Positions 20,192-50,997 of a stretch of 64,000 bases of DNA are shown here, piece by piece; position 1 is the first letter of the stretch; every line of letters starts with the position of its first letter. The stretch is from Methanolacinia paynteri (GTDB lineage: Archaea > Halobacteriota > Methanomicrobia > Methanomicrobiales > Methanomicrobiaceae), in NCBI RefSeq assembly GCF_000784355.1, contig NZ_KN360934.1, positions 1-64,000 on the forward strand, in the 5' to 3' direction. The notes beneath the pieces are model-generated. The model did not search any database and was not told where the DNA came from. It worked only from the letters and a program-made list of their open reading frames with translations. Made by a program: the position numbers and the translations under genes.

Positions 20192-20551
20192 ACCTGACCT
20201 CTTTGCACGGGCATCACTCTATTATTTTTTAGTATTCCCGTTGCGTTACGACTGCCTGTGATGAACAAATAATATACCATACCAATTGCCTTTCTTTATA
20301 AATATTGTTAATTATATTTCATTCATTTGCCCCCATCTGTTTACTTTATATTGTTTACTCTTCCATAATTATAACAATTCTCCTTTCAGTGAATAGTTGT
20401 CCGAGTGATTGCTTATCAATAAAACTTTACTTACATCATAATTAATTTATCCGGCTCTTTGAAATTTGACTGGATTTAATGATAAATTTAACTATTTTAC
20501 GTTTCATTTGCAGGTATATAATAACAATTATTTGAAATTAAGTAATACTAA
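20192..20551. other. Divergent promoter region of the pilus loci
   Basis: Strongly AT-rich spacer between divergent genes. A TATA-like GGTATATAATAAC at about 20512-20524 and an AGTAATACT box at 20541-20549 precede the small plus-strand frame at 20552. I see no gene in the spacer itself. Confidence 0.5.
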
Positions 20552-31292: not shown

Positions 31293-32042
31293 TCAATTCC
31301 CGCCGATCTTCTCTGTTATTTCAAAAATTCCAGGATAATCACCGGGAAGCTCTTTTCCTTCCAGCCCCGATACCAGGAGTGAGGGATCATTGGAAAATTC
31401 TGCTATTATCGCTTCTTTGTTGTCTATACTGTTCCTTAGATATGACGATGTCTCCTGATCGATCTTGTTCAATATATAATATACCGGAACGTCGATCTTT
31501 TCAGCCATTCTTGCGACCTCTTTTGAAAGATGCAGGGATTCGTAGGACGGATCTATGATCATCAGGATTGCGTCGCACATCTGGTCGATGCCCCTGCCGA
31601 AATGCTCTATCCCCGCTTCGGTGTCGACAATAACGATATCTTTGTCCGAAAGCTTAAGTTCGGAGATAAAACGCTTCGACAGTATCCCCATCGGGCATGC
31701 GCATCCTTCTCCGGCTTCGTGAATCTTTCCGATTGCAACGAGTCCGATCGAATCTTTTTGGGAGATATAGTCTTTGGGAATATCATCAAACGTCCAGTTC
31801 AATTTAGGTGGCTCTCCACCTTCTCTCGCCTTTCTGAATCCCTCCATCATGCCCTTTTTTCCGCCGAAGTATCCCATCAGATCTTTGGGGGATTCCATCC
31901 CGAGTATTCTGTTGAGGCTGGCATTCGATTCGTCGGTGTCCACCACAAGTACCCTGTGGCCGTTTTCACTGTAATACCTGGCAAGAAGGGTGGTGATTGT
32001 ACTCTTGCCTGAGCCTCCTTTTCCGCATATTATTGCTTTCAT
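31293..32042 (-). CDS. CooC-type nickel/CODH maturation ATPase (MinD/ArsA superfamily)
   Basis: P-loop ATPase of the CooC group, which delivers nickel to carbon monoxide dehydrogenase or related enzymes. The deviant Walker A KGGSGKST (8-15) is present, with VVDTDESN after it. The CXC metal-binding pair of CooC is at C114/C116 (GCACPMG). 249 residues, typical. No CODH gene is in the window; it stands ahead of the chelatase/import operon, so a role in metal delivery there is an alternative. Confidence 0.85.
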   Translation of the reverse strand: MKAIICGKGGSGKSTITTLLARYYSENGHRVLVVDTDESNASLNRILGMESPKDLMGYFGGKKGMMEGFRKAREGGEPPKLNWTFDDIPKDYISQKDSIGLVAIGKIHEAGEGCACPMGILSKRFISELKLSDKDIVIVDTEAGIEHFGRGIDQMCDAILMIIDPSYESLHLSKEVARMAEKIDVPVYYILNKIDQETSSYLRNSIDNKEAIIAEFSNDPSLLVSGLEGKELPGDYPGIFEITEKIGGN

Positions 32043-32354
32043 GGTAATTCCTTTTAGTATTACTTAGTTTGAAATTCGTAATATTTAATTTGCGCGTTTT
32101 GATCCTATATTTCTAACTGCCATAAAATGCATCGTCCTGTAAATAAATGAAAATTATAACCAAAATGAATAAAAGTAATCATTTAACCTCTACTTTTATT
32201 TAATTATGACAATTTCAAATAATAATGTTTATACTGTGTAACAATTAATAAAAAATTATAATTATGTCTTACTCGAAGGGGGGTAAGTTGTACTTTATGT
32301 ACCGGCTGGTCTGGCATTTTTATTCACAAATTTAATTGAGGTGAGAATTTGGCA
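32043..32354. other. Divergent promoter region, cooC-like gene / pilin locus
   Basis: About 310 AT-rich bases. An AGTATTACT box at 32056-32064 lies 14 bases before the cooC-like start. A TATA-like CTACTTTTATTTAA at about 32190-32203 fits the pilin operon and would leave a leader of roughly 130 bases. A GAGGTGAG ribosome binding site is at about 32338. I see no gene. Confidence 0.5.
32056..32064 (-). promoter_or_regulatory. AGTAnTACT box at the cooC-like start
   Basis: A 4+1+4 palindrome, read AGTAATACT on the minus strand, lying around the expected transcription start about 25 bases after a TATA-like AAATATTAC. The position suits a repressor site. The same core occurs in the metal island. 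Confidence 0.35.
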
Positions 32355-36826: not shown

Positions 36827-38029
36827 TCATACGAATGTCAAAAAAATTACATAAAATCCTATGAATGCCAGAATTATACCGAGAATTACCTTCATCTCCC
36901 TCCTGTGTTTTTCGCGGAATTCGTCTACGGCAGCCGGTGACAGTCCGGAATATACAAGTGCGACAATAACAACAAGCGGAAGAACGAACATCAGGTTATA
37001 CAGTACGAGATAGGGCATACCCTCCCGGAATGTCATCTCCGAGGACAGGAGACTCAGAACTGCAAGGTAGATCCCTCCCGTGCATGGAAGTTCGAAGACC
37101 CCTACAAGGACACCGAGTAAAAACGCAGCCGGAACAGATGCTTTTTTGATGATATTTCCGATAAATTCCTTTGATGATACGGGAATACGGAGTTTCACAG
37201 GAGTATCTTCGGCAATGCCTTCATTAATGCTGAGAATACCTGCAGTTACGGCAACAACACCGGCAATGATTGAAAAGACAAGTGAGGACCCTGTGAAGGA
37301 AACGATGCTCATGATTCCCAAACCGGCTAAGATATAGAATATGAATACTGCCGATATATATGAAAATCCGATTGCGAGGATCTTTTTCTTCGAACCTGCA
37401 GCCATGAGGGAGACCAGCAGGAACACAAGTACGGCAAAAGCGCACGGATTGATGCCGTCCAGGAGGCCGGCAGTCAGGACAAGGTACGGATTTAATTTTA
37501 ATTCCGGATGTTCGGAATATGATCCCGGATGACTGTGTTCGACAGGTTCGGTGTACCATCTCTTTTCATATTCCGCATCGGGTATGGAGCGGTTTTCAAC
37601 GCTCTTAAAAATATCTTCGATATTTGAATTGATCGCATCAAAACCCTCGATTACAATGGTGTCTCCCGTATATATTGCAGGGTATGAAGGAAAGGTGATA
37701 TTATGATGCTCGGCAAAATCGTATAAAGCTGTCAGGTTTTCGTCCGAAAGTTCAATATTATAATATGATACGCTGATGTTTGGGTGGTTTCCGGCAGTCT
37801 CTTCAATAACGGGCAGCGCCTTCAGGCATCCGCTGCAGTGAGTGCTGTAAAAAATGTAAACCGTCGTATTTGAATATGAAAAGTCGTGAGCAGTATTTTC
37901 TGCGGAAAAATTTACGGCACTGTTCCCGTTTGTAGAGCCGTAACCTGCATATGCCGGGCAGACGAGAATAAGCAGAAGAAATATGCTGCAGAAAACTACT
38001 GTCTGTTTGCTGTTTAATGTACCTTTCAT
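36827..38029 (-). CDS. Thioredoxin-fused DsbD/CcdA-type membrane protein
   Basis: Carries reducing equivalents across the membrane to extracytoplasmic thiols. 400 residues: signal peptide (about 1-28), an outside thioredoxin-like domain with CSGC (C65, C68), then about six transmembrane helices from residue 185. Two membrane cysteines lie in NPCAF and LPCTGG, matching the DsbD/CcdA pair. The N-terminal placement of the thioredoxin domain reverses the usual DsbD order. An AGTATTACT box lies about 60 bases upstream, like those of the secreted FmdE genes. Confidence 0.87.
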   Translation of the reverse strand: MKGTLNSKQTVVFCSIFLLLILVCPAYAGYGSTNGNSAVNFSAENTAHDFSYSNTTVYIFYSTHCSGCLKALPVIEETAGNHPNISVSYYNIELSDENLTALYDFAEHHNITFPSYPAIYTGDTIVIEGFDAINSNIEDIFKSVENRSIPDAEYEKRWYTEPVEHSHPGSYSEHPELKLNPYLVLTAGLLDGINPCAFAVLVFLLVSLMAAGSKKKILAIGFSYISAVFIFYILAGLGIMSIVSFTGSSLVFSIIAGVVAVTAGILSINEGIAEDTPVKLRIPVSSKEFIGNIIKKASVPAAFLLGVLVGVFELPCTGGIYLAVLSLLSSEMTFREGMPYLVLYNLMFVLPLVVIVALVYSGLSPAAVDEFREKHRREMKVILGIILAFIGFYVIFLTFV

Positions 38030-38085
38030 CCGGATCAGGATTCACAAATTGTTTAATGTAATATTTGGTACACAAATAGAAAAAA

Positions 38086-38094
38086 GTAATACTC
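38086..38094 (-). promoter_or_regulatory. AGTAnTACT box of the DsbD-like gene
   Basis: On the minus strand it reads AGTATTACTTTTTTCTAT, close to the TTTAGTAATACTTTTA box of the island genes, 57-65 bases before the start. Confidence 0.4.
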
Positions 38095-38263: not shown

Positions 38264-38279
38264 TTTAGTAATACTTTTA
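38264..38279 (+). promoter_or_regulatory. TTTAGTAATACTTTTA box, fmdE-like gene 1
   Basis: The 16-base box contains the palindrome AGTA-A-TACT overlapping a TATA-like ACTTTTAAT. Its core starts 151 bases before the ATG. The same box recurs before the genes at 43368 and 44743. Confidence 0.6.
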
Positions 38280-38417
38280 ATGCTGCGTGTAATAATTATT
38301 ATTTTGTTTTGTTGTTGCGAATATGACTGTTCTGCAAAATCTTTATGCAAGAAGGCGGATTCTGAATTCTCGTTTTTTTGCTGCAACTGCATGTTCCGAT
38401 GATTAAACGGAGGAAAT

Positions 38418-39503
38418 ATGAGGACTGGTATTTTGAAATTAGTTTCAGGCATATTGCTGTTGTGCCTGCTGATTGTTCCGGCGATGGCCGATACTGCGGA
38501 TGATTTCATGTTCAAAGAGCTTGGAGAGCGTGCTGCACTCCTTGCCATGGATGAGCTTGGATTCGGATACGGCGACCCTGATGTCTTGGTCTTGACAAAC
38601 GCCGGCCGTGCTGTTGTGGATGGTCAGCCGACGAATAAGGTACTATCGGGGATCACAAATATATCCGGCCTTTCAAACGGAGATGGAAACCTCTATACAA
38701 TAAACCGGGCCGACTGGAAAGCGCTCTGGATCTATTTCTATGACCGGGATACCGGAATGGGGCTCTATCTGGTTCCTGCAGACAGGTATTATACCATGAC
38801 AAAGGGTGAGATCATCAGTCTTCCGCTTGAGAATACCTTCTCGACCGCAGATCTCATAACAGGTGATATTTATATGATGCTTGAAGACACCGATGCGGGC
38901 AATGCAACGCAGGAGGCACTTGGCGGGAATGCATTCTCGCTTCTTTCCATTTCGAATTCGTGGGCATACGGTGCACCGTATGATCTCATGACCGTCGCGT
39001 CGCTTCATAACCATTTGTGCCCCGGAGTTCTCGGCGGATATATCCCTGCGAAATATGTCGAGGAAAAACTTCCTGCTGAAGAATCTGATTCATATACGGC
39101 AGTATTCACATCAGCCTCATGCAAACTCGATGCATTCCCGATAATGTGGGACATGACGCCGGGAAAGCAGAACCTGGCAATTGTGTCCGATGGTTTTACT
39201 GAGGATTCACAGGCCGCATTCACTGAAAAATATAATGCAACGCCGGCAGGTGTATTCGTCAGGTGGAACAGCGGAGAAAAATCGGGTGATGGAATCGTAA
39301 TTGCTTCTCTTCCGTCGACTTCACCTGCATATGAAGGCCCTTCGTGGGGTACAAAGGTCTATGGATCCGTTGAGAAGGTAAAATGTCTTGGCGATCTCGA
39401 CAGCATCTATACCACGATCTACGAGTTCAAGGTTGACAGTGATGAGCTTTCCGAACTTAAAAATCCTGAAAACAACCCCTATGAAGTCATAGGGATGATT
39501 TAA
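38418..39503 (+). CDS. Secreted FmdE-family protein, copy 1
   Basis: 361 residues with a signal peptide (about 1-24). The FmdE metal-site pattern is HNHLCPG (H197, H199, C201). FmdE is named from formylmethanofuran dehydrogenase operons; its function is unknown but metal binding is likely. The N-terminal half (about 30-180) is shared only with the copy at 43368 in this window. A strong GGAGG precedes the ATG. It lies 30 bases before methyltransferase 2. A metal-binding surface protein feeding a transporter is inferred. Confidence 0.85.
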   Translation: MRTGILKLVSGILLLCLLIVPAMADTADDFMFKELGERAALLAMDELGFGYGDPDVLVLTNAGRAVVDGQPTNKVLSGITNISGLSNGDGNLYTINRADWKALWIYFYDRDTGMGLYLVPADRYYTMTKGEIISLPLENTFSTADLITGDIYMMLEDTDAGNATQEALGGNAFSLLSISNSWAYGAPYDLMTVASLHNHLCPGVLGGYIPAKYVEEKLPAEESDSYTAVFTSASCKLDAFPIMWDMTPGKQNLAIVSDGFTEDSQAAFTEKYNATPAGVFVRWNSGEKSGDGIVIASLPSTSPAYEGPSWGTKVYGSVEKVKCLGDLDSIYTTIYEFKVDSDELSELKNPENNPYEVIGMI

Positions 39504-39533
39504 ACAACTACATTTATTTTTAAAGGTGTTAAT

Positions 39534-40430
39534 ATGGACAAAAACGATAATTTGGATAATTGGATCAAATGCTGGAAAGAATCGGCACGCAATGCCCAGA
39601 TTCCTTTTGATGAAAGCAGAACGGCTGAAATGTGGAATAAGAGGTCCGATACATTCGGTATGGATCGCAAAAGCGGCCGTATGCACAAGAGAACGGAAAA
39701 TATCTTTGCCATGTTGAAAGAAGCCGGATTTAATCCCGAGGGGGCAAAAGTCCTTGACATCGGGTGCGGACCCGGAACACTTGCAATTCCCCTTGCAAAG
39801 GCTGGAGCGGAAGTGACGGCGATTGACATTGCATCTGGTATGCTTGACAGGCTCAGGGCAACGGCAAAAGAGGAGAACCTTAACATTGATGCAAGGGAGC
39901 TTTCCTGGTGGACTGCGGATATTGATGACCTGGGATTCAGAAAACAGTTTGATCTCGTACTTGCGTCGATGACGCCAAGTATCAACGGTGTCGAAAGTTT
40001 TGAGAAGATGATATCCTGTTCGAAGGGTCTTTGCTATTACAGTAACTTTGTCCGGAGAGGACAGAATCCTGCACATGAGGAGATCAGAAAACTCCTTGAA
40101 CCGAAGGACGGAGCAAAAAGAGCAGAGGACCGTCCCGATCATCCCCCGCACGGTCATTCGCATGGACCGGGGAACGGATTATTCTTCCCTTTCATGTACC
40201 TCTATCTTAACGGGTACTGCCCTGATGTTAAAATCGTCAATTCAGAGCATATGATGGAGAAAGGTCCTGAAGATGCAGCTGAAAGAACCATTGATATGAT
40301 GAGCCGCGACAGAACCCTTGATGAAGAAACACAGGCAATTATCCGGAACTACTACAAAACTGCCTCTGAAAACGGAACCTACAGCCCAAGTTCATCTACA
40401 TACACCGGTATGATGGTCTGGAAAATTTAG
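39534..40430 (+). CDS. SAM-dependent class I methyltransferase, paralogue 2
   Basis: 298 residues; SAM motif VLDIGCGPG with AIDIA after it. It shares with the other two copies the N-terminal WxKCWK, SWWTADID, SCSKGLCYYS, FFPFMYLY and the C-terminal GMMVW. A histidine-rich insert (HPPHGHSHGPG) about residue 200-215 is special to this copy and could bind nickel or zinc. It is co-directional with and 30 bases from fmdE-like gene 1, so the two probably form one unit. Confidence 0.86.
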   Translation: MDKNDNLDNWIKCWKESARNAQIPFDESRTAEMWNKRSDTFGMDRKSGRMHKRTENIFAMLKEAGFNPEGAKVLDIGCGPGTLAIPLAKAGAEVTAIDIASGMLDRLRATAKEENLNIDARELSWWTADIDDLGFRKQFDLVLASMTPSINGVESFEKMISCSKGLCYYSNFVRRGQNPAHEEIRKLLEPKDGAKRAEDRPDHPPHGHSHGPGNGLFFPFMYLYLNGYCPDVKIVNSEHMMEKGPEDAAERTIDMMSRDRTLDEETQAIIRNYYKTASENGTYSPSSSTYTGMMVWKI

Positions 40431-40550
40431 GCGGGCTATCAACCCTCTTTTTTAATTTTGCTCATGTAAGGAATGTCCGAGGGAATATAATTTGGTCTCT
40501 TTTATGTGTAATCATTTCATATGTCTGTACACTTTGTTATCTGTAAGTCA

Positions 40551-40593
40551 AATGATCACACTTTTTATTTAAACTATTTAATATTGTAAGACT
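40551..40593 (+). promoter_or_regulatory. Promoter of binding lipoprotein 1 (shared with its tandem copy)
   Basis: AATGATCACACTTTTTATT at 40551-40569 lies exactly 43 bases before the ATG, as in the copy at 41855. The TATA-like CTTTTTATT is about 33 bases before the ATG, implying a leaderless transcript. TGATCA is a palindrome. Confidence 0.6.
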
Positions 40594-41748
40594 ATGTTCT
40601 TGAAAGGAATTTTACCTGTGATGATAATTCTGCTCTTTACAGCCGCAATTCTCGTATCAGGCTGTTCTGAAAGTACTGCATATGTTTATAGCGGCGATGA
40701 AGAATCATCCGTAACGATAACCGACAGCTACGGCCGTGAAGTTACGATACCGTCCGATATCGACAGCATCGTATGCTCATCGGGAGGTACATGCACCCGG
40801 TATATCACATATATGGAATCGTCTGATCTTTTTATTGGTATTGAAAGCGGCGAAGAGGAGAACGAAACAAACAGGCCGTATGTACTTGTGAATCCTCAGT
40901 TTGCGGATCTTCCTGTCGCCAGCACCAAGAGTGACGGGGCGAACCTCGAACAGATAATGGTCCTGGACCCGGACGTGATATTCACGGCCGGAACTACAGT
41001 GACAAATGAGTCTGGTGAAACGGCCTCGCCTGCTGATATAATGCAGTCGAAGACAGGTATTCCCGTAGTTGCATTCTCGTCGGGATCATTCAGCGATGAT
41101 GAAAGCCTGGAAAAGATGTTTGCCGGATTCCGGATTATCGGCGAGGCTCTCGGAAAGGAGGAACGTGCTGAAGAACTGATCCGATATATCGAAGATTCAA
41201 AAGCCGACCTGATAGAGCGGACCGCAGATATTCCCGAATCCGAAATAAAAACTGCATTTATCGGAGGCCTTTCACACAGCGGAGCTCATGGTCTGATGTC
41301 CACAAGTTCACAGTATGTTCCCTTTGAATGGTGCAACGTTGCGAATATCGCTGCTACAGATTCCGACATATCCAGTTCCGACTTTTCGAAAGAGTCGTTG
41401 ATATACGCAGACCCGGATTACATCTTCATTGACGCCGGAACATTGAATGTAGAGGATGAGATCGGGGGATTTGAAGATATAAAAAGTACGGTCTTCTCTG
41501 ATCTAAAGGCAGTGAAAAGCGGGGATGTATATGCAACTCTTCCATATAACAGTCGGGCAACAAATTATGCCACCGTCCTTGCTGATGCATATTATATCGG
41601 AAAGACCGTCTATCCTGAGAAATTCGGGGACATAGATGCAGAAGAGAAGGCCGATGAGATCTATACGATGTTTGTCGGAGAGCCTGTTTTCGACAGGCTA
41701 AATGAAATCTGTAATAATCAGGGCTTTAAAAAAGTGAACCTTGAATAA
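40594..41748 (+). CDS. FecB/BtuF-like metal-chelate binding lipoprotein, copy 1
   Basis: 384 residues; lipobox LVSGC with C24. A Peripla_BP_2 fold is indicated by VTITDSYGREVTIP followed by a repeat of binding-protein segments and a C-terminal NYATVLADAYYIGKTVYPE. An SSGGTCTRY segment near residue 65 may be part of the ligand pocket. No permease is adjacent; the nearest fitting one is FecCD/FecE at 54003-55903. The next gene is a close paralogue. Confidence 0.87.
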   Translation: MFLKGILPVMIILLFTAAILVSGCSESTAYVYSGDEESSVTITDSYGREVTIPSDIDSIVCSSGGTCTRYITYMESSDLFIGIESGEEENETNRPYVLVNPQFADLPVASTKSDGANLEQIMVLDPDVIFTAGTTVTNESGETASPADIMQSKTGIPVVAFSSGSFSDDESLEKMFAGFRIIGEALGKEERAEELIRYIEDSKADLIERTADIPESEIKTAFIGGLSHSGAHGLMSTSSQYVPFEWCNVANIAATDSDISSSDFSKESLIYADPDYIFIDAGTLNVEDEIGGFEDIKSTVFSDLKAVKSGDVYATLPYNSRATNYATVLADAYYIGKTVYPEKFGDIDAEEKADEIYTMFVGEPVFDRLNEICNNQGFKKVNLE

Positions 41749-41854
41749 ATATTTTCATCTTTTCTCTTTTAGAAGGAAAATTCGGAATGCTTTTGAATTC
41801 TCTTCCTCCGTTGTAAGTTTAATAGTTTACATGGGGATTATTATTTCTGATCAA

Positions 41855-41897
41855 AATGATCACACTTTTTATTGAAAGTATCGAATATTATCATATT
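41855..41897 (+). promoter_or_regulatory. Duplicated promoter of binding lipoprotein 2
   Basis: It repeats the AATGATCACACTTTTTATT box of copy 1 at the same 43-base distance from the start, and the intervening bases are also similar without gaps. This shows that the promoter was duplicated with the gene. Confidence 0.6.
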
Positions 41898-43052
41898 ATG
41901 ATCTGGAAAGGAGTATTCCAGGGGGCAATTATTCTGCTTTTTGCAGCTGCAATTCTCGTATCCGGTTGTTCGGAGAGTACTGCATATGTTTATAGTGGCG
42001 ATGAAGAATCATCCGTAGTGATAACCGACAACTACGGGCGTGAAGTTACTGTCCCTTCTGAAATCGGCAGCATAGTATGCTCATCAGGAGGAACCTGTAC
42101 AAGATACATTACATATTTGGAGTCTTCAAACCTGCTTGCCGGTATTGAAAGCGGCGAAGAGGAAACTGAAACCAGCAGGCCTTATACCCTTGTGAATCCG
42201 CAGTTTGCAGATCTTCCGATCGTCAGCACCAGGGGCGACGGGGCGAACCTTGAACAGGTTATGCTCGTAAATCCACAGGTCGTTTTCATGGCAGGAACAA
42301 CGGTAACCAACGAGTCCGGCGAAACTGCTTCTCCTGCGGACGTCATGCAGACTAAGACGGGTATTCCCGTAATTGCATTCTCATCGGGATCATTCAACGA
42401 TGATGAAAGCCTGGAAGAGATGTTTGCGGGATTCAGGCTTTTGGGAGAGGCTCTAGGGAAAGAAGAACGTGCTGAGGAACTAATTGCATATATTGAAGAT
42501 TCGAAAGCCGACCTGATGCAACGGACTGCAGACATTCCCGACTCAGAACAAAAGACTGCATATATCGGGGGTTTATCAGCAGGAGGAGCACACGGTCTGA
42601 TGTCAACAAGTTCACGGTATGTTCCGTTCTCATGGTGTAATATTGTGAATGTCGCGGCCAATGATGCGGATATCTACAGTACTGATTTCTCGAAAGAATC
42701 ATTGATCTATGCAGATCCCGATTATATCTTCATAGATGCGGGAACACTTCGCGTAGAGGATGAGATCGGTGGATTCGATGACATAAAAAGCCAGATTTTC
42801 TCCGAACTAAAGGCTGTGAAAAACGGGGATGTTTACTCGACTCTGACCTATAACTACCGTGCCACAAATTATGCCACAGTCCTTGCCGATGCTTATTATG
42901 TGGGAAAAACGGTTTATCCTGAAAGGTTTGAGGATATAGATCCAAAAGAGAAAGCCGACGAGATCTATACGATGTTTGTCGGTGAGGCGGTCTTTGACAG
43001 GCTTAATACGATATCCAACAACCAGGGGTTCGAAAAGATTCCTCTTGAGTAG
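41898..43052 (+). CDS. FecB/BtuF-like metal-chelate binding lipoprotein, copy 2
   Basis: 384 residues, equal in length to copy 1 and very similar throughout, including lipobox C24 and SSGGTCTRY. The frame is open to an ATG at 41856, but that ATG lies inside the conserved promoter box, so 41898 is the start. Differences are spread along the protein, so both copies seem functional and may have diverged in ligand or expression. Confidence 0.88.
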   Translation: MIWKGVFQGAIILLFAAAILVSGCSESTAYVYSGDEESSVVITDNYGREVTVPSEIGSIVCSSGGTCTRYITYLESSNLLAGIESGEEETETSRPYTLVNPQFADLPIVSTRGDGANLEQVMLVNPQVVFMAGTTVTNESGETASPADVMQTKTGIPVIAFSSGSFNDDESLEEMFAGFRLLGEALGKEERAEELIAYIEDSKADLMQRTADIPDSEQKTAYIGGLSAGGAHGLMSTSSRYVPFSWCNIVNVAANDADIYSTDFSKESLIYADPDYIFIDAGTLRVEDEIGGFDDIKSQIFSELKAVKNGDVYSTLTYNYRATNYATVLADAYYVGKTVYPERFEDIDPKEKADEIYTMFVGEAVFDRLNTISNNQGFEKIPLE

Positions 43053-43367
43053 ACCCTTTTGCTTATCCTGAAAACAGGGTATTCAACCTAATTTTCTATT
43101 TATTCCGATTGAATGAAAATGAACTGGAATTAGTTCATGCCATGATGCTGGTTATTTTTCCGTCTTGAGTAGTATGATATTTATCAACTGTTTATAATTA
43201 TTAAATCAAGTTGTAAATTGGAAAAGCATTTAGTAATACTTTTATTAACTAATGTATTATTATTGAAAGGGCTTATTGGATATTTTCATCAGCTCCGCAC
43301 ATGCGATTCAGTTCTGTGAATGCCCGCTGGCATCCGGTTCGAATCGGTTTTAAATGAGATGATTGTT
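43053..43367. other. Leader region of fmdE-like gene 2
   Basis: About 315 bases with a TTTAGTAATACTTTTA box at 43229-43244 and a presumed leader of about 120 bases. CCGGTTCGAATCGG at about 43335 looks like a T-arm but no tRNA can be built. No gene seen. Confidence 0.5.
43229..43244 (+). promoter_or_regulatory. TTTAGTAATACTTTTA box, fmdE-like gene 2
   Basis: Identical 16-base box to that at 38264; the palindrome core starts 136 bases before the chosen ATG. Confidence 0.6.
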
Positions 43368-44450
43368 ATGAAAGAGGATTGGTTTAAAGCAATATTCTGT
43401 CTGGTTGTAGCAGTTGTGCTATGTACACAGATAGTGGCAGCATCGCCTGATGCAGATCAAATGGAGGCTCTGGGGGAATATGCAGCCACAATTGCAATGG
43501 ATGAACTTGGATTTGATTACGGCAGCCCGGACGTTGTTGTCCTGACGGATGCCGGCCGTGTTCTGGTGGACGGTCAGACCACAGAAAAGATCATATCCGG
43601 GATTACCAAAGTATCGGGACTGCAAAACAGTGACAACACGCTGTTCCAGATTAACCGTGCAGAATGGAATGACCTCTGGTTCTATTTTTACGATAAAGAC
43701 ACAGGAAAAGGTCTCTATCTTGTGCCGAAAGAGAGCTTCTTCAATATGAGCGCAGCAGCGGTCGAATCACTGTCTCCTGAGGATGCATTCTCGACCGTTT
43801 CTCTGGTCACAGGCGATATCTACCAGATGCTTGAAGATACCGATGCAGGCAATGCAACACAGAAGGCTCTTGGAGGCAATGCATTCTCGCTGGTTTCACT
43901 ATCAAACGGCTGGGCATATGGTGCTCCGTATGATCTTATGTACGCGGCATCGCTTCACAATCACTTCTGCCCCGGAGTATCGAGTGGATACATTCTCGTA
44001 AAATACGTCGAGGAAAACCTGCCGCTGACCGATGGAACATCGTATACGGTAATCTCAAATCCCACCTGGTGTAAAGAGGATTTATACCCGACCCTCTGGG
44101 ATATGACACCCGGAAAGGGCGGAGTGGCTTCTTCGGTTGTATTTACGGATGAGGATGAGGAGTATCTCACCAATGAGTATGGTATCCGCCCTGCAGGTAT
44201 CTTCGTCCTCTGGGACAGGAAGGCTAACAACGGTACAGGCCTCGCACTTGGATTCCAGTTCGACGAATCGGAATGGACCGGCCCTTCCTGGGGTCAGAAG
44301 GTTTATCAAACCGCGGATATGGTGCAGAATCTCGATCATCCCGAAGATTATGTTAAAGTCATGAAGGAATTCACGGTGGATTCCGGGATGCTCTCCGAGC
44401 TGAAAGATCCGCTGAATAATCCCTATGAAGTAATCGGAATGATGCAGTAA
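43368..44450 (+). CDS. Secreted FmdE-family protein, copy 2
   Basis: 360 residues from the ATG at 43368, which places the signal peptide at the N-terminus (upstream in-frame ATGs at 43320 and 43359 would bury it). It has the metal-site pattern HNHFCPG (about residues 198-204) and the same layout as copy 1, ending in NNPYEVIGMM. It precedes the Nik/Opp importer operon by about 290 bases. Role inferred: surface metal capture or delivery. Confidence 0.85.
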   Translation: MKEDWFKAIFCLVVAVVLCTQIVAASPDADQMEALGEYAATIAMDELGFDYGSPDVVVLTDAGRVLVDGQTTEKIISGITKVSGLQNSDNTLFQINRAEWNDLWFYFYDKDTGKGLYLVPKESFFNMSAAAVESLSPEDAFSTVSLVTGDIYQMLEDTDAGNATQKALGGNAFSLVSLSNGWAYGAPYDLMYAASLHNHFCPGVSSGYILVKYVEENLPLTDGTSYTVISNPTWCKEDLYPTLWDMTPGKGGVASSVVFTDEDEEYLTNEYGIRPAGIFVLWDRKANNGTGLALGFQFDESEWTGPSWGQKVYQTADMVQNLDHPEDYVKVMKEFTVDSGMLSELKDPLNNPYEVIGMMQ

Positions 44451-44742
44451 CGGTTACCATATTCTTTAAATTACTCTTTTTTAGATTAAACTCTGGAGGC
44501 ATGCCCTGATAGTAAAAGTAAGGCAAATTTAGATATTTTTTATTTCAATCTTAAATTATTTCCATATCTTTATGGCAATTGTGTTAATAAACAATCCATT
44601 TAGTAATACTTTTATTGTACAAAATATCAATATTTCAAAGAATCATTGATCTCACTTTTACTACTTTGATAGAGAAGAGTGTATTATGGTCTGAATTCTT
44701 AAATGCTGATTAAAAAAGGGGTTATTGCTAAAAGGTGTTATC
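44451..44742. other. Leader region of the Nik/Opp importer operon
   Basis: About 290 AT-rich bases: a T6 run soon after the stop of fmdE-like gene 2, then the third TTTAGTAATACTTTTA box and a leader of roughly 115 bases. No gene seen. Confidence 0.5.
44599..44614 (+). promoter_or_regulatory. TTTAGTAATACTTTTA box, Nik/Opp importer operon
   Basis: Third copy of the same box. Its core starts 141 bases before the ATG at 44743, nearly the spacing seen at the two fmdE-like genes. Confidence 0.6.
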
Positions 44743-46392
44743 ATGAAAAATCTTCATAAAGATCTGTTAATTTTGTCCATGCTGTTTGTCATAATCGCAG
44801 TAGCGATATCGGGCTGTACCGGGCAGGGGCAGCAGGCAGGAAAAGAAAACGCTGGTGTTTCGTCAACCCAGGCGGATTTGATCTATCTGGCCGCCAGCGA
44901 CTGCGGGTATCCCCAGCCCTTTACCTGCTATACCCGGGGGCCGTCCTCCGCAAAGGTCAGGATGATCTTCGACAGCCTTGTAGAGAGGGACGAAAAGGGA
45001 ATTATCCCATGGCTTGCCGAAAGCTGGGATATAAGCGATGACGGTCTGGAGTATACTTTCTACCTTCGCGATGATGTATATTGGCAGGATGGCGAGCCTT
45101 TTACGGCCGACGACGTCAAATTCACATTCGACTATGAACTGAAAAATGTTCCCGTAACAGGCAGTATCGAATCAGGAATTGTTAAGAGTGTGGAAGTAGT
45201 CGATTCCGGCACCGTCAAATTCATTCTTGAGAATCCTGCCTCAACCTTCCTGTATAAACTAACGGGATTCTACATAATCCCCGAACATATCTATGCGAAT
45301 GTTTCGGATCCGACAAGTTATCTCGAACCCGATGGGGTGACAGGAACAGGACCGTATCTTCTTGACGAATACAACAAAGAGCATGGTACATACAGGTTTG
45401 TCACGAATGAGAACTTCTGGGGTCCCGATACTGCTATCAAAACCGTTGAATTCGTTCCTGTAAGTGACGAACTGATCGCTTTTGAGCAGGGGGATATAGA
45501 TTTCACAGGTATCACCCCCGATGTCCTGGGGAGATTTGAATCAGATCCCGATGTAAGAATTGTTCAGCAGCCGGCATTCTGGGCGTACCAGTTCTATTTC
45601 AATATGAATAAATGCCCTGAATTAGGCGATAAAAAGGTAAGGCAGGCCTTTGCATATGCAATCGATCGCGATGAACTGATCGAAAAAATCGCACGTGGTG
45701 CAGGCAAACCCGGAAATATGGGCATTCTGCCTGAAGATCACATATGGTATAACTCCGATCAGCCTGCATATTCCTATGATCCTGAAAAGGCGAAGGAGCT
45801 GCTTGATGAAGCAGGCTGGACCGATACCGACGGTGACGGATTCAGGGATAAGAACGGGGAGAAGATGTCGTATTCCTTAACCACAGGTGAAGACACCCAG
45901 GTTCGTATCGCGGAAATCATCAAGGAAAGGCTTGGCGAGGTAGGAATAGACGTTCAGGTCCAGGCACTTGAGAGCAGGTCCCGTGATGCAAACCTCGTAA
46001 GCGGGGATTTCGAACTCTTAATCAACGGCTACGGAGGCTGGGGACAGGACCCCGACTTCCTGAGGTCCAGGTACTGCGTTTATGAAAACGGTTCCGGAGG
46101 AAATGCGGTATCGTCCGGTGCTGCATCATGGGGCTACAATAACGCGGATCTAAATGAACTAGGTCTCCTCCAGCTCCAGGAACTCGATGAAGACGCGAGG
46201 AAAGACCTGATCTACCAGATGCAGGAGATCCTGGCAGATGACGTTCCGGCGATACCCCTGTATTACACCACCAGCTATGATGCTTGGAGAATTTCCGACT
46301 ACGACGGGTGGATGAACATGTACGACCATCACGCCAGAACACACAGCAAGCTTTCATATCTTATGAGGGATGGAGTTGCAGCACAACGATAA
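44743..46392 (+). CDS. Nickel/oligopeptide-type ABC binding lipoprotein (NikA/OppA family)
   Basis: About 549 residues; lipobox AISGC with C25. SBP_bac_5 family features are clear: LAESWDISDDGLEYTFYLR, DGEPFTADDVKF and VRQAFAYAIDRDEL. Ligand could be nickel or cobalt chelate, a peptide or another small molecule. The ATG at 44743 has GGTG six bases before it, preferred to the TTG-like start at 44725. Its end overlaps methyltransferase 3 by 23 bases, and the permeases follow. Confidence 0.9.
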   Translation: MKNLHKDLLILSMLFVIIAVAISGCTGQGQQAGKENAGVSSTQADLIYLAASDCGYPQPFTCYTRGPSSAKVRMIFDSLVERDEKGIIPWLAESWDISDDGLEYTFYLRDDVYWQDGEPFTADDVKFTFDYELKNVPVTGSIESGIVKSVEVVDSGTVKFILENPASTFLYKLTGFYIIPEHIYANVSDPTSYLEPDGVTGTGPYLLDEYNKEHGTYRFVTNENFWGPDTAIKTVEFVPVSDELIAFEQGDIDFTGITPDVLGRFESDPDVRIVQQPAFWAYQFYFNMNKCPELGDKKVRQAFAYAIDRDELIEKIARGAGKPGNMGILPEDHIWYNSDQPAYSYDPEKAKELLDEAGWTDTDGDGFRDKNGEKMSYSLTTGEDTQVRIAEIIKERLGEVGIDVQVQALESRSRDANLVSGDFELLINGYGGWGQDPDFLRSRYCVYENGSGGNAVSSGAASWGYNNADLNELGLLQLQELDEDARKDLIYQMQEILADDVPAIPLYYTTSYDAWRISDYDGWMNMYDHHARTHSKLSYLMRDGVAAQR

Positions 46393-47251
46393 CCTGAAAA
46401 ACCTGGTCGACTGCTGGAAAGCGGAGACCTCAAACATCCCTCACCATTCGGATGAAAAACGGATGATCGAGTTCTGGCAGAAGTGCTCGGCAAGGTTTGC
46501 GAAAAATGTCGATGAAGAAAAAGGTAAGCAGAGGATTGCCGGAATCCTGGAATTTCTTGAAGATTCCGGTTTTAACCCCGCCGGGTCAAAAGTTCTCGAT
46601 ATCGGCTGCGGCCCGGGCACCCTGTCCCTTCCACTCGCCCGCCTGGGCGCCGAAGTGACGGCTCTCGATATATCGTGCGGGATGATTGATAGGCTGAGAG
46701 AAACTGCAGAAAGCGAAAATTTGTCTGTAAAACCGATGGAATGCTCATGGTGGAGTGCGGATATAGATTCACTCGGGTTAAGGGGAAAATACGATCTCGT
46801 CCTTGCCTCGATGACTCCCGGAGTAAACGATATAAAAAGTTTTGAGAAAATGATGGCATGCTCCCGGGGCTTCTGCTACTACAGTAATTTCGTACACAGA
46901 AACGAGGACCAGTCCCATAATGTGCTCCGCAGTATGATATTTGACGAGCAGGAAGCCGACGGGAAAACTTTGAATGCCCATGGAAGCGGGATGTTTTTCC
47001 CGTTCATGTACCTGTATATTTCAGGATTCCGTCCGCTGATAAAGGTCAGCCATCTCGAAGGAAAGGAGGAATCCCCCTGGGAAGAGGCTGCCGAACGGGC
47101 GAGTGCCTTTCTGGCACACGGCAAGGACCTCGACGACGATAAAATTCAGATGATTCGTGATTACTTCAGGGCCAAATCGCCGGACGGCATCTACAGAACG
47201 GAATCGGACGTATATACCGGGATGATGATCTGGACTGTAAACGGCAGATGA
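46370..47251 (+). CDS. SAM-dependent class I methyltransferase, paralogue 3
   Basis: 293 residues; VLDIGCGPG with ALDIS following. It keeps the N-terminal VDCWK, CSWWSADID, MACSRGFCYYS, FFPFMYLY and C-terminal GMMIW of the group. It is inserted between the importer's binding protein (23-base overlap) and its first permease, so it must be co-expressed with transport. This is the strongest sign that the methyltransferases act on the transported compound or in its handling. Confidence 0.87.
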   Translation: MELQHNDNLKNLVDCWKAETSNIPHHSDEKRMIEFWQKCSARFAKNVDEEKGKQRIAGILEFLEDSGFNPAGSKVLDIGCGPGTLSLPLARLGAEVTALDISCGMIDRLRETAESENLSVKPMECSWWSADIDSLGLRGKYDLVLASMTPGVNDIKSFEKMMACSRGFCYYSNFVHRNEDQSHNVLRSMIFDEQEADGKTLNAHGSGMFFPFMYLYISGFRPLIKVSHLEGKEESPWEEAAERASAFLAHGKDLDDDKIQMIRDYFRAKSPDGIYRTESDVYTGMMIWTVNGR

Positions 47252-47255
47252 TGTG

Positions 47256-48239
47256 ATGGATAAAGACAGGAATTCTTTTATTTTCAGGTTTTTACTGACA
47301 TTATTCGTAATTCTTGCCATAAATTTCTTTTTGCCCCGCATGATGCCCGGGGATCCCTTCGCCCTTAATTCCGCCGATGAGGCCGGCGAAGAGATAATAG
47401 TAATGACCGAGGAGCAGCGGCAGTATTACCTGAACTATTACGGACTCGACAAACCTGTCCCAGAGCAGTTCGTAGCCTACCTGAAGAACCTTGCGACCGG
47501 TGATCTGGGGAGAAGCATATATTATAAAATGCCGGTTATCGACGTGATAAAGCTGCATTTGCCCTGGACTATACTTATAGTCATATGTGCCACTGCCCTG
47601 AGTACCATTTTAGGTGTTATTCTCGGGACGATCTCCGCCAAAAACAGGAAGAAAGGATCCGACAGGCTGATGATGACCGGACTTATCGCGTTTGCCGAGA
47701 TCCCTTCATTTCTGCTCGGCCTTATCCTCCTGCTTGCCTTCGGGGTATACTTCAGGGTATTTCCCCTTGCCGGGGCCGTCACGCCTTTTGCAGATTACGG
47801 AAGTGTTCTGGATCAGGCGGGTGATATAATGTATCATGCCTTCCTCCCGATCGTCACTCTTTCGCTTGCGCAGCTGACCGGTGTGTATCTCCTCACGAGA
47901 AACACCCTGATAACGGTTATGACAAAGGATTACATACGTACGGCAAAGGCAAAAGGGGTCGGCGAGAAGAAGGTATGGAACAGCCATGCTTTAAGAAATG
48001 CACTCCTTCCGGTCGTGACGAGAACGGGCTTTATGATAGGCATTATGATGGGGGGAGCTATCCTCGTCGAGAGCGTTTTCAGCTATCCCGGCATAGGAAT
48101 GACCCTCAGAAGTGCGGTTGTCGGCCGTGATTACCCTTTGATCCAGGGAATTCTCCTTGTGCTTGCCATTTCCATCCTTGTCTGCAATCTGGCTGTCGAT
48201 CAGATCTACAAAAAGCTTGATCCGAGGGTTGAGGTATGA
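47256..48239 (+). CDS. NikB/DppB-type ABC permease
   Basis: 327 residues. First of two BPD_transp_1 permeases: N-terminal helix, an outside loop with EEQRQYYLNYYGLDKP, then about five helices with the EAA-type loop RTAKAKGVGEKKVWNSHALRN region. A GTG one codon earlier is possible. It overlaps the next permease by four bases. Confidence 0.93.
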   Translation: MDKDRNSFIFRFLLTLFVILAINFFLPRMMPGDPFALNSADEAGEEIIVMTEEQRQYYLNYYGLDKPVPEQFVAYLKNLATGDLGRSIYYKMPVIDVIKLHLPWTILIVICATALSTILGVILGTISAKNRKKGSDRLMMTGLIAFAEIPSFLLGLILLLAFGVYFRVFPLAGAVTPFADYGSVLDQAGDIMYHAFLPIVTLSLAQLTGVYLLTRNTLITVMTKDYIRTAKAKGVGEKKVWNSHALRNALLPVVTRTGFMIGIMMGGAILVESVFSYPGIGMTLRSAVVGRDYPLIQGILLVLAISILVCNLAVDQIYKKLDPRVEV

Positions 48240-49165
48240 GTGGAGAGGAATTCGTGCAGACCGGCCACGGTGTTGTATTAGTGACCCTTACGAATCTCCT
48301 GTATAAGATAACCGGAAAAATCTCAGCAACTTTCTCCAGATTCAGTATCGAGGGAAAGATAGGGATCATCGGTCTCCTGATAGTGGTGTCCATGGCAATA
48401 TTCGCACCACTGATTACCATTTATCAACCTGACAAAATTACAGGTGATTCACTGGAATCTCCAAACGCCGATCATATTCTCGGGACCGACGAACTTGGTA
48501 TGGATATCTGGTCACAGATCTGCTACGGTGCGAGGATGAGCCTCACCATCGGTCTTGCGGTGGCTCTTCTGGCAGGGATCGGAGGAGGTGCACTCGGTAT
48601 ACTCGCGGGATATAAAGGCGGAACTGCCGATCAGGCATTAATGAGGGTGATAGATGTTACGATGGCCCTGCCTTCTTTCCCTTTGCTTGTTGTCATCTCT
48701 GCATTTCTGGGTCCGAGCATCCTGAATGTCGTTCTTATACTCGTTCTTTTCAGCTGGGCTAAACCAGCCAGGATCGCACGCTCACAGACACTCTCGATTA
48801 AAAACAATAATTACATAACAGCAGCCCGTAATTACGGTGCAGGATCATTTTACCTGCTCCGGAAGCATATCCTTCCCGAGGTAATGCCGATACTTCTTGT
48901 CCTGATCATCGGTATAACATCATACGCGATCATCGCCGAAACAGGACTTGCCTTCCTTGGGCTTGGCGATCCTACCTCAAAAAGCTGGGGCATGATGCTT
49001 AATTATGCCACAGGCTTTCGTTCGATCTATTTTACTCCCTACTGGCAGTGGTGGCTCCTGCCCCCGCTGTTTATGCTGATCTTTTTGCTTCTCTCCCTTG
49101 CTTTTATCAGCAGGGACCTTGAGAGGGTGCTTGATCCCAAATTACGATACAAGAGAGGTTCCTGA
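48236..49165 (+). CDS. NikC/DppC-type ABC permease
   Basis: 309 residues. Second permease, with the DppC-type segment GTDELGMDIWSQICYGAR and the C-terminal ETGLAFLGLGDPTSKSWG. About six helices. The N-terminal 40 residues before the first helix are more variable. It is two bases from the double ATPase gene. Confidence 0.93.
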   Translation: MSGEEFVQTGHGVVLVTLTNLLYKITGKISATFSRFSIEGKIGIIGLLIVVSMAIFAPLITIYQPDKITGDSLESPNADHILGTDELGMDIWSQICYGARMSLTIGLAVALLAGIGGGALGILAGYKGGTADQALMRVIDVTMALPSFPLLVVISAFLGPSILNVVLILVLFSWAKPARIARSQTLSIKNNNYITAARNYGAGSFYLLRKHILPEVMPILLVLIIGITSYAIIAETGLAFLGLGDPTSKSWGMMLNYATGFRSIYFTPYWQWWLLPPLFMLIFLLLSLAFISRDLERVLDPKLRYKRGS

Positions 49166-49167
49166 AT

Positions 49168-50997
49168 ATGAGTATTCTAAGGATTGATAACCTGAAGTGC
49201 GAATACCTGTCCGATTCCCATGCGGTAAAAGCTGTTGACGGGGTGTCCTTTGAGATAGGCGGAGGAGAGGTCCTTGGCATAGTCGGTGAATCGGGGAGTG
49301 GCAAGACAACAATTGCATTAGGTATAATGGGGCTCCTTCCGGAAAATGCGGATGTTTCAGGGGATATCTTTTTCAGGGGGACTGAAATATCCTCCCTGCC
49401 CGACCCTGAGATGGATTGCTACAGGTGGAAGGACATCGCGATTGTTTTCCAGAACGGCCTTGAGGTTTTAAATCCGGTAATTAAGGCAGGCGACCAGGTC
49501 ATGGAGCCGATGATTACCCATCTTGGATTCAGCCGGGATGAAGCGGAGAAAAGATGCGGGGAACTGTTCTCGATGGTTGGCCTCGATCCCGAATGGATGA
49601 AGACATACCCGCATCAGCTTTCCGGCGGTATGCGCCAGAGGGTTCTTCTTGCAATGGCTTTATCCTGCAATCCCCCTTTGCTGATACTTGATGAAGTTAC
49701 ATCTGCACTTGATGCATTTACAAGAAAGGAGATCAGGGAGCTACTCGTCAGCCTTAAAGAGAAATTCGGCTATTCAATGCTTATAATCTCACATGACATC
49801 ACCTTCGTCTCTTCGCTGGCCACAAGAATCGTGGTATTATATGCCGGGAAAGTGGTGGAGGCAGGTCCTGTAAGGGACGTTATCACCGGGCCACGTCATC
49901 CGTATACCCGCGGACTGGTCCATTCTACGCCTGACATCTTCATATACAAAGATCTCTGGGGTATTCGGGGCGATGCACCTTCAGGTGAGGAGTTCTGCGG
50001 ATGCCCGTTTAGTAAACGATGCACCCAAAAGACCGAAATCTGCTCGAAGGCCGCTCCTGAACTGCAGCCCCTGGGAGACGGGCGCGAGATTGCATGCCAC
50101 AGGGGAGGGATAATGACTCTTCTCGAGGCAAAAGATCTGAAGTTCAGGTATTCCCTTCCAGGTAAGAAATATATCCTGGCTGTCGATGATGTAAGTCTCG
50201 ATGTTATGGAAGGAGAAGTTCTTGCTGTCGTGGGCCAGACCGGTTCGGGCAAATCAACTCTTGCACACATTCTGGCAAACGTACTCCTGCCTGAATGCGG
50301 AAAGGTGGAGTTTATGGGTTCTGATGTTAGTGAAGGCTGCCTTGGCAGCAGCTTCGACGGGGTTCAGATAGTCTTCCAGGACCCGTTCAGTTCTACGAGC
50401 AACCGGTTTTCAGTACTTGATGCAATAAAGGAGCCTCTCGATATCAACGGCATTGGCAGCCCTGAAGAAAGGGTTCGAATGGCCCGTGAGGTTCTTGAGC
50501 TTGTCCACCTTCCTTCAACTGATCAATTTATCGGCAAATACTGCAGCGAGCTTTCCGGCGGACAGAGGCAGAGAGTCGCCCTGGCAAGGGCTATGGTAAT
50601 GAGACCCAAACTGCTGATTGCAGATGAGATAACTTCGGCACTGGATGTATCAACTTCAGCAAATGTTTTGAGGCTCCTGAAAGGCCTGCAGAACAGGAGG
50701 GGATTTGCCATGATATATATCTCTCATGACCTGACACTGACACTGAAGATCGCAGACCGGGTGGCGGTAATGAATTCCGGTAAAATTGTGGAGATAGGCA
50801 ATGCCCATGATGTCATGCTTTCTCCTTCTGACGATTACACACGAAGACTTATTGGATCGAGAATAGGGCTTTGCTGCCACGGGCATGAAGGGAATATTTC
50901 CGGGGAATCTCATGCCATGTACCACTCTGGTGATTCTCCGGCGGGCATGATAACCGGTGAAGAAAAGGAACTTTCGGATGCGAAATCCGAATTCTAG
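49168..50997 (+). CDS. Fused NikD-NikE (DppD-DppF) type ABC ATPase
   Basis: 609 residues holding both ATPases of the importer. Module 1: Walker A GESGSGKT (40-47), LSGGMRQR, LLILDEVTSALD, then an oligopeptide-ABC C-terminal region with a cysteine motif (CGCPFSKRC...C...C). Module 2 starts near residue 315: GQTGSGKS, LSGGQRQR, LLIADEITSALD. The fusion fixes a heterodimer-like pair. The tail has His/Cys-rich residues (CCHGHEG) that might sense metal. Two separate genes are usual for this family. Confidence 0.92.
   Translation: MSILRIDNLKCEYLSDSHAVKAVDGVSFEIGGGEVLGIVGESGSGKTTIALGIMGLLPENADVSGDIFFRGTEISSLPDPEMDCYRWKDIAIVFQNGLEVLNPVIKAGDQVMEPMITHLGFSRDEAEKRCGELFSMVGLDPEWMKTYPHQLSGGMRQRVLLAMALSCNPPLLILDEVTSALDAFTRKEIRELLVSLKEKFGYSMLIISHDITFVSSLATRIVVLYAGKVVEAGPVRDVITGPRHPYTRGLVHSTPDIFIYKDLWGIRGDAPSGEEFCGCPFSKRCTQKTEICSKAAPELQPLGDGREIACHRGGIMTLLEAKDLKFRYSLPGKKYILAVDDVSLDVMEGEVLAVVGQTGSGKSTLAHILANVLLPECGKVEFMGSDVSEGCLGSSFDGVQIVFQDPFSSTSNRFSVLDAIKEPLDINGIGSPEERVRMAREVLELVHLPSTDQFIGKYCSELSGGQRQRVALARAMVMRPKLLIADEITSALDVSTSANVLRLLKGLQNRRGFAMIYISHDLTLTLKIADRVAVMNSGKIVEIGNAHDVMLSPSDDYTRRLIGSRIGLCCHGHEGNISGESHAMYHSGDSPAGMITGEEKELSDAKSEF

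Follow-up and report, generated by a model that had tools for sequence, protein, structure and literature searches.

Three genes of a Methanolacinia paynteri gene island are preceded by the same promoter box, and we conclude with good confidence from sequence comparison that this box combines the upstream half-site of a predicted NikR operator with its TATA element; the operator would turn three transcripts off when nickel is plentiful and on when it is short. The element has a bipartite shape, is conserved across genera before the same genes and is shared with nikM promoters, and the genome encodes NikR. An operator of this kind is already known; the new part is the predicted regulon, in which secreted FmdE-domain proteins join methyltransferases and a NikA-type importer operon.

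A box with a second half-site

The 16-bp box TTTAGTAATACTTTTA occurs in exact copies at positions 38264, 43229, and 44599 of the 64-kb window (the whole stretch of DNA analyzed), all on the + strand, before fmdE-like 1, fmdE-like 2, and the gene of a Nik/Opp-type binding protein, as an initial annotation of this DNA had reported. Counting a shared A on the 5' side, the identical stretch is 17 bp across the three copies. The distances from AGTA to the ATG codons (Table 1) are 151, 136, and 141, the values given previously. No match beyond the three copies was found in the window at up to three mismatches, and dinucleotide shuffles of the window searched with this tolerance gave a mean of 0.52 matches; 1 of 100 shuffles produced three, and the real three are exact. 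The initial annotation had also suggested scanning the genome for the box. Across the whole 2.79 Mb, TTTAGTAATACTTTTA occurs exactly three times, each copy upstream of one of the three island genes, and allowing one mismatch adds a single match. At three mismatches the genome holds 55 matches versus 137 for the reversed control pattern; since they are rarer than the control, these loose matches are noise.

Comparing the promoters of homologous genes revealed a second element, GTAATAAT or GTATTATT, that the first reading had missed. Its first base lies exactly 21 bp, or two helical turns, after the first base of GTAATAC, and the whole element reads GTAAYAC-N14-GTNNTAN, its spacer opening with a TATA-like TTTTA. 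Two GTAAYAC-type half-sites 13 to 14 bp apart are clear at operator 2; operators 1 and 3 pair a good first half with a poor 3' half, which is better in orthologous sites. The palindrome, AGTA-n-TACT, that had been seen inside the box arises because GTAATAC almost equals its reverse complement. The initial annotation had argued that this palindrome, overlapping a TATA-like element, would suit a repressor. A selected operator overlapping the TATA element is retained from that proposal; the palindrome itself is only one half-site, and the operator is the pair of half-sites 21 bp apart. Half-site order varies among the sites, being direct in some and inverted in others, and the orientation of the half-sites cannot be fixed because GTAATAC is almost palindromic.

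Table 1. Predicted operators and genes of the island, in window coordinates
Feature	Position	Strand	Details
Predicted NikR operator 1, before fmdE-like 1	38267..38295	+	GTAATAC 38268-38274, TTTTA 38275-38279, GTAATAA 38289-38295; exact box
fmdE-like 1, secreted, FmdE domain	38418..39503	+	PF02663, 54.3 bits (cutoff, 22.9)
SAM-dependent methyltransferase	39534..40430	+	Pfam methyltransferase families
Predicted NikR operator 2, before fmdE-like 2	43232..43260	+	GTAATAC 43233-43239, TTTTA, GTATTAT 43254-43260
fmdE-like 2, secreted, FmdE domain	43368..44450	+	PF02663, 40.6 bits
Predicted NikR operator 3, before NikA-type operon	44602..44630	+	GTAATAC 44603-44609, TTTTA, weak ATATCAA 44624-44630
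NikA/CntA-type binding lipoprotein (SBP_bac_5)	44743..46392	+	PF00496
Rest of NikA-type operon: methyltransferase, two permeases, fused double ATPase	46370..50997	+	

Nickel importer promoters and NikR

A search of 120 related genomes matched the bipartite pattern repeatedly across the order, mostly about 47 bp upstream of nikM, which encodes a nickel importer. We trained a motif on nikM upstream regions outside the genus, leaving 34 of 40 CbiM/NikM-family regions after removal of 4 belonging to another paralogue and 2 from the same genus. The de novo motif, (A)GTAAYACTTATA followed by 9 to 10 loose bases and GTsnTAC, has the bipartite architecture of the island element. The island sites were absent from the training set, and within the window operators 2 (43232) and 3 (44602) rank first and second with scores of 22.9 and 18.3, and operator 1 (38267) ranks sixth with 11.9; the maxima of 30 simulated windows average 7.0, the highest being 11.0. 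The top score, 26.9, belongs to the genome's own nikM promoter, and the promoter of a third fmdE-like gene, at another locus of the genome, reaches 17.9. Scores of at least 11 were obtained for 28 of 36 nikM upstream regions and for 0 of 14 cobalt-type cbiM upstream regions, a contrast that is partly built in, as most of the 36 were training data. A matrix-independent search of 149 genomes for exact GTAAYAC-N14-GTAAYAC pairs gave 29 matches, versus about ten altogether for the reversed-pattern control. Of these, 21 lie before nikM, so that the element is shared with nickel uptake promoters of relatives as well as of the genome itself; the remaining pairs precede mcrB (2), a NiFe hydrogenase gene (1), and a FecCD permease gene (1) or fall in other or unclear places (4).

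These whole-genome searches are pattern scans, which may miss divergent operators. Upstream of the BtuF-like genes, the cobN operon, and the Band7-FecCD operon, we found no sites above background. The nikM-trained motif is not perfectly specific, given a site at 20520-20548 (AATAACA-N14-GTAATAC; score, 17.8) that is flanked by a 282-aa gene and one for an archaeal pilin and has no evident nickel link. An inverted pair, GTATTAC-N14-GTAATAT, at 32056-32084 stands 14 bp upstream of the start of a CbiA-type NTPase gene (31293-32042, minus strand); its score of 9.4 is below the highest null value, making it a candidate only. A weak site (38065-38093; score, 9.6) precedes a divergently oriented membrane protein gene (36827-38029). 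The two BtuF-like genes (40561 and 41863) have in common a leader sequence, GATCACACTTTTTATT, some 30 to 40 bp upstream of their starts. This leader looks like a single half-site with TATA, lacks the second half, and has a background-level score.

The genome contains one NikR gene (PF08753 at G000:C29:428476-428703). Its product retains the nickel-ligand residues (QH, HAH, and the Cys are readable), and the nearest solved structure is that of Pyrococcus horikoshii NikR (best PDB match, 2bj1). As 114 of the 120 genomes encode NikR, which is thus almost universal in the order, comparing NikR presence with motif presence is a test without power. In two genomes of another family (G082 and G052; L307 and L308), the motif stands at the head of a nikM-nikR cluster. 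The initial annotation had named a DtxR-, NikR-, or ModE-type regulator; a metal-responsive repressor is indeed likely, and of these three types the evidence singles out NikR.

The half-sites and their spacing resemble published signals. Predicted NikR signals of delta-proteobacteria read GTGTTAC-N13/14-GTAACAC, with the reversed order GTAACAC-N13/14-GTGTTAC in some genomes (Rodionov et al. 2004, PMC545781). The sites described here share with them the 7-bp half-site (GTAACAC/GTAATAC), the spacing, and nickel importer targets, but differ in that GTAATAC dominates, direct order is common, a TATA element occupies the spacer, and secreted FmdE-domain proteins are among the targets. The Escherichia coli operator, GTATGAT-N13/14-ATCATAC (PMC545781), has equal spacing and a NikA-type operon as its target, and several nikM sites, among them the genome's own, have ATCATAT/GTCATAC-like second halves; the dominant half-site here is a different one, however, and the promoter is archaeal. 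For eight methanogen genomes, NikR sites have been predicted (Rodionov et al. 2006, as cited in PMC10617489), and according to that citation they too place NikR over nickel ABC/ECF importer genes (nikMNQO).

Conservation between genera and alternative readings

The element is conserved in other genomes before the same genes. In a genome of another genus of the same family (G009), the corresponding island has five boxed operons: fmdE-like 1, fmdE-like 2, two methyltransferase operons, one of which continues into Band7, FecCD, and ABC genes, and a NikA-type operon that ends in a CbiA-type NTPase homologous to the product of window gene 31293-32042. Three of the boxed leaders in this genome (L062 and L063) are about 280 to 310 bp long, roughly double the window leaders. 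The predicted operator before the fmdE-like 1 orthologue in another genus scores 16.9. Promoters of NikA-type orthologues score 19.2 in G009 and 21.9 in G019, where the site upstream of the NikA-type gene is strong, and in both the second halves are better than that of operator 3. Sites also lie upstream of FmdE-like genes in G001 and G014, and in another family of the order (G044) an FmdE-like gene whose product is 35% identical has GTAATAC-N14-GTATTAC upstream.

Beyond the order we used a neutral scan, fixing only eight bases (GTNNNAC-N13/14-GTNNNAC) over the 500 bp upstream of 55 FmdE-like genes. It gave 6 matches, where 0.23 would be expected on the basis of the remainder of these contigs, and all 6 are recognizable NikR-type pairs (three in Methanosarcina and one each in another euryarchaeon, a Hadesarchaeon, and a Bathyarchaeon). 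On ANME-2-type and Methanothrix contigs, FmdE-like genes adjoin genes for NikA-type proteins; the motif search found no site at these pairs. In a separate observation, two genomes of another family (L332 and L334) carry an exact GTAATAC-N14-GTAATAC about 285 bp before mcrB, which encodes the beta subunit of methyl-CoM reductase, and nickel control of the methane-forming enzyme is possible there.

Several other identities for the box were weighed. It might be a strong core promoter (BRE plus TATA) followed by an AT-rich melting region, with no specific regulator. TTTTA does stand at a plausible TATA position, about 135 to 155 bp before the start codons, and the elements are AT-rich, but the exact box is found in no other promoter of the genome, the element is missing before the 14 cbiM paralogues, and the exact half-site pairs of the 149 genomes are mostly before nikM. 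A common core promoter is thus rejected by the exact and loose whole-genome scans and the cbiM control, and we regard this explanation as very improbable; by the same evidence, the box does not behave as a sequence found at random places or before housekeeping genes, the outcome that the initial annotation had seen as fatal to its proposal. An RNA element was also discarded, as Rfam returned no match in the window at the gathering threshold. That the boxes are remnants of a recent duplication of a single promoter within the island has almost no likelihood in our view: fmdE-like 1 and 2 are paralogous, with 53% identity, but no pair of the three leaders exceeds z = 3.5, the 60-bp flanks of the boxes have just 19 to 25 bases in common, and other genera retain the box upstream of several different genes, with the same motif preceding nikM. 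The earlier view that selection, and not recent copying, maintains the box therefore holds.

The element could instead be the operator of another regulator, metal-responsive or of the ribbon-helix-helix type, with targets that it shares with NikR. NikR binding is a prediction, and the half-site order is variable, which leaves some room for this idea; we still consider it improbable, as the half-sites and spacing match published NikR signals (PMC545781), the targets are nickel genes, and the motif heads the nikM-nikR cluster in two genomes. Because of this match and this cluster, and because a NikR with nickel ligands is encoded, NikR is the best candidate regulator of the island boxes. We infer its binding, the direction of control, where the transcripts start, and the role of TTTTA as a TATA box. 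With ample nickel, Ni-loaded NikR would hold both half-sites and bar TBP/TFB from the TATA element; under nickel shortage, it would release the operators, and three transcripts would be produced, carrying fmdE-like 1 with the methyltransferase gene, fmdE-like 2, and the NikA-type importer operon.

The island and nickel

Both fmdE-like products score above the FmdE profile cutoff and have a predicted metal site, His-x-His-x-Cys ... Cys. Its residues (H197, H199, C201, and C235) are invariant among secreted homologues and align to the Zn/Ni site of 2GLZ, an FmdE-domain structure in which two histidines and two cysteines bind a mixed Zn/Ni ion (PMC2954224). The predicted fold of fmdE-like 1 (mean pLDDT, 84.9) has 2glz as its sole structural match at an E value of ≤0.001. 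It is plausible that the secreted FmdE-like proteins handle nickel. The methyltransferase gene begins 30 bp 3' of fmdE-like 1 and is probably on the same transcript. For the binding lipoprotein, the best NCBIfam match is TIGR02294 (NikA) at 212.5 bits; because this is below the equivalog cutoff of 393, we call the protein NikA/CntA-type and not NikA. Its best PDB matches are annotated as nickel ABC transporter substrate-binding proteins. A cobN/FecCD/binding-protein operon lies in the window near the island; a study of a methanogen under nickel limitation reported increases in a CobN homologue, a NikR homologue, and possible metal-chelating proteins (PMC12350162).

Two further features were observed. 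The divergently encoded membrane protein (36827-38029) weakly matches DsbD/SfLAP and carries a CxxC close to its start, and it is kept in the G009 island. The leader of fmdE-like 2 (43245-43367) and those of the third fmdE-like gene and the G001 homologue (L061 and L064) have in common a CCGCAYACGRTTCAGT-like stretch, possibly a leader element or an upstream reading frame.

It is conceivable, though rather doubtful, that the island is a new NikR-controlled nickel-scavenging system. The FmdE-domain proteins would hold nickel outside the cell at the His/His/Cys/Cys site, the DsbD-like membrane protein would keep their cysteines reduced, and the methyltransferases would make or modify a small nickel carrier to be taken in by the NikA-type and FecCD-type importers. 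A search of the genome for a nicotianamine synthase found none, so such a carrier would need chemistry other than that based on nicotianamine, and an opine-type metallophore was rejected on this ground.

Nickel is a bottleneck metal for methane production. Little is known about how methanogens take it up (PMC10617489). The analysis recasts a puzzling box as a nickel switch that can be tested, and it offers a lead to the function of the secreted FmdE-domain family, which is poorly understood and which the predicted operator ties to nickel uptake. The FmdE family was named after a molybdenum-enzyme operon; in Methanomicrobiales its members are found here under a predicted nickel operator, and, judged by sequence, FmdE-like genes with such sites also occur in some Methanosarcina, a Hadesarchaeon, and a Bathyarchaeon.
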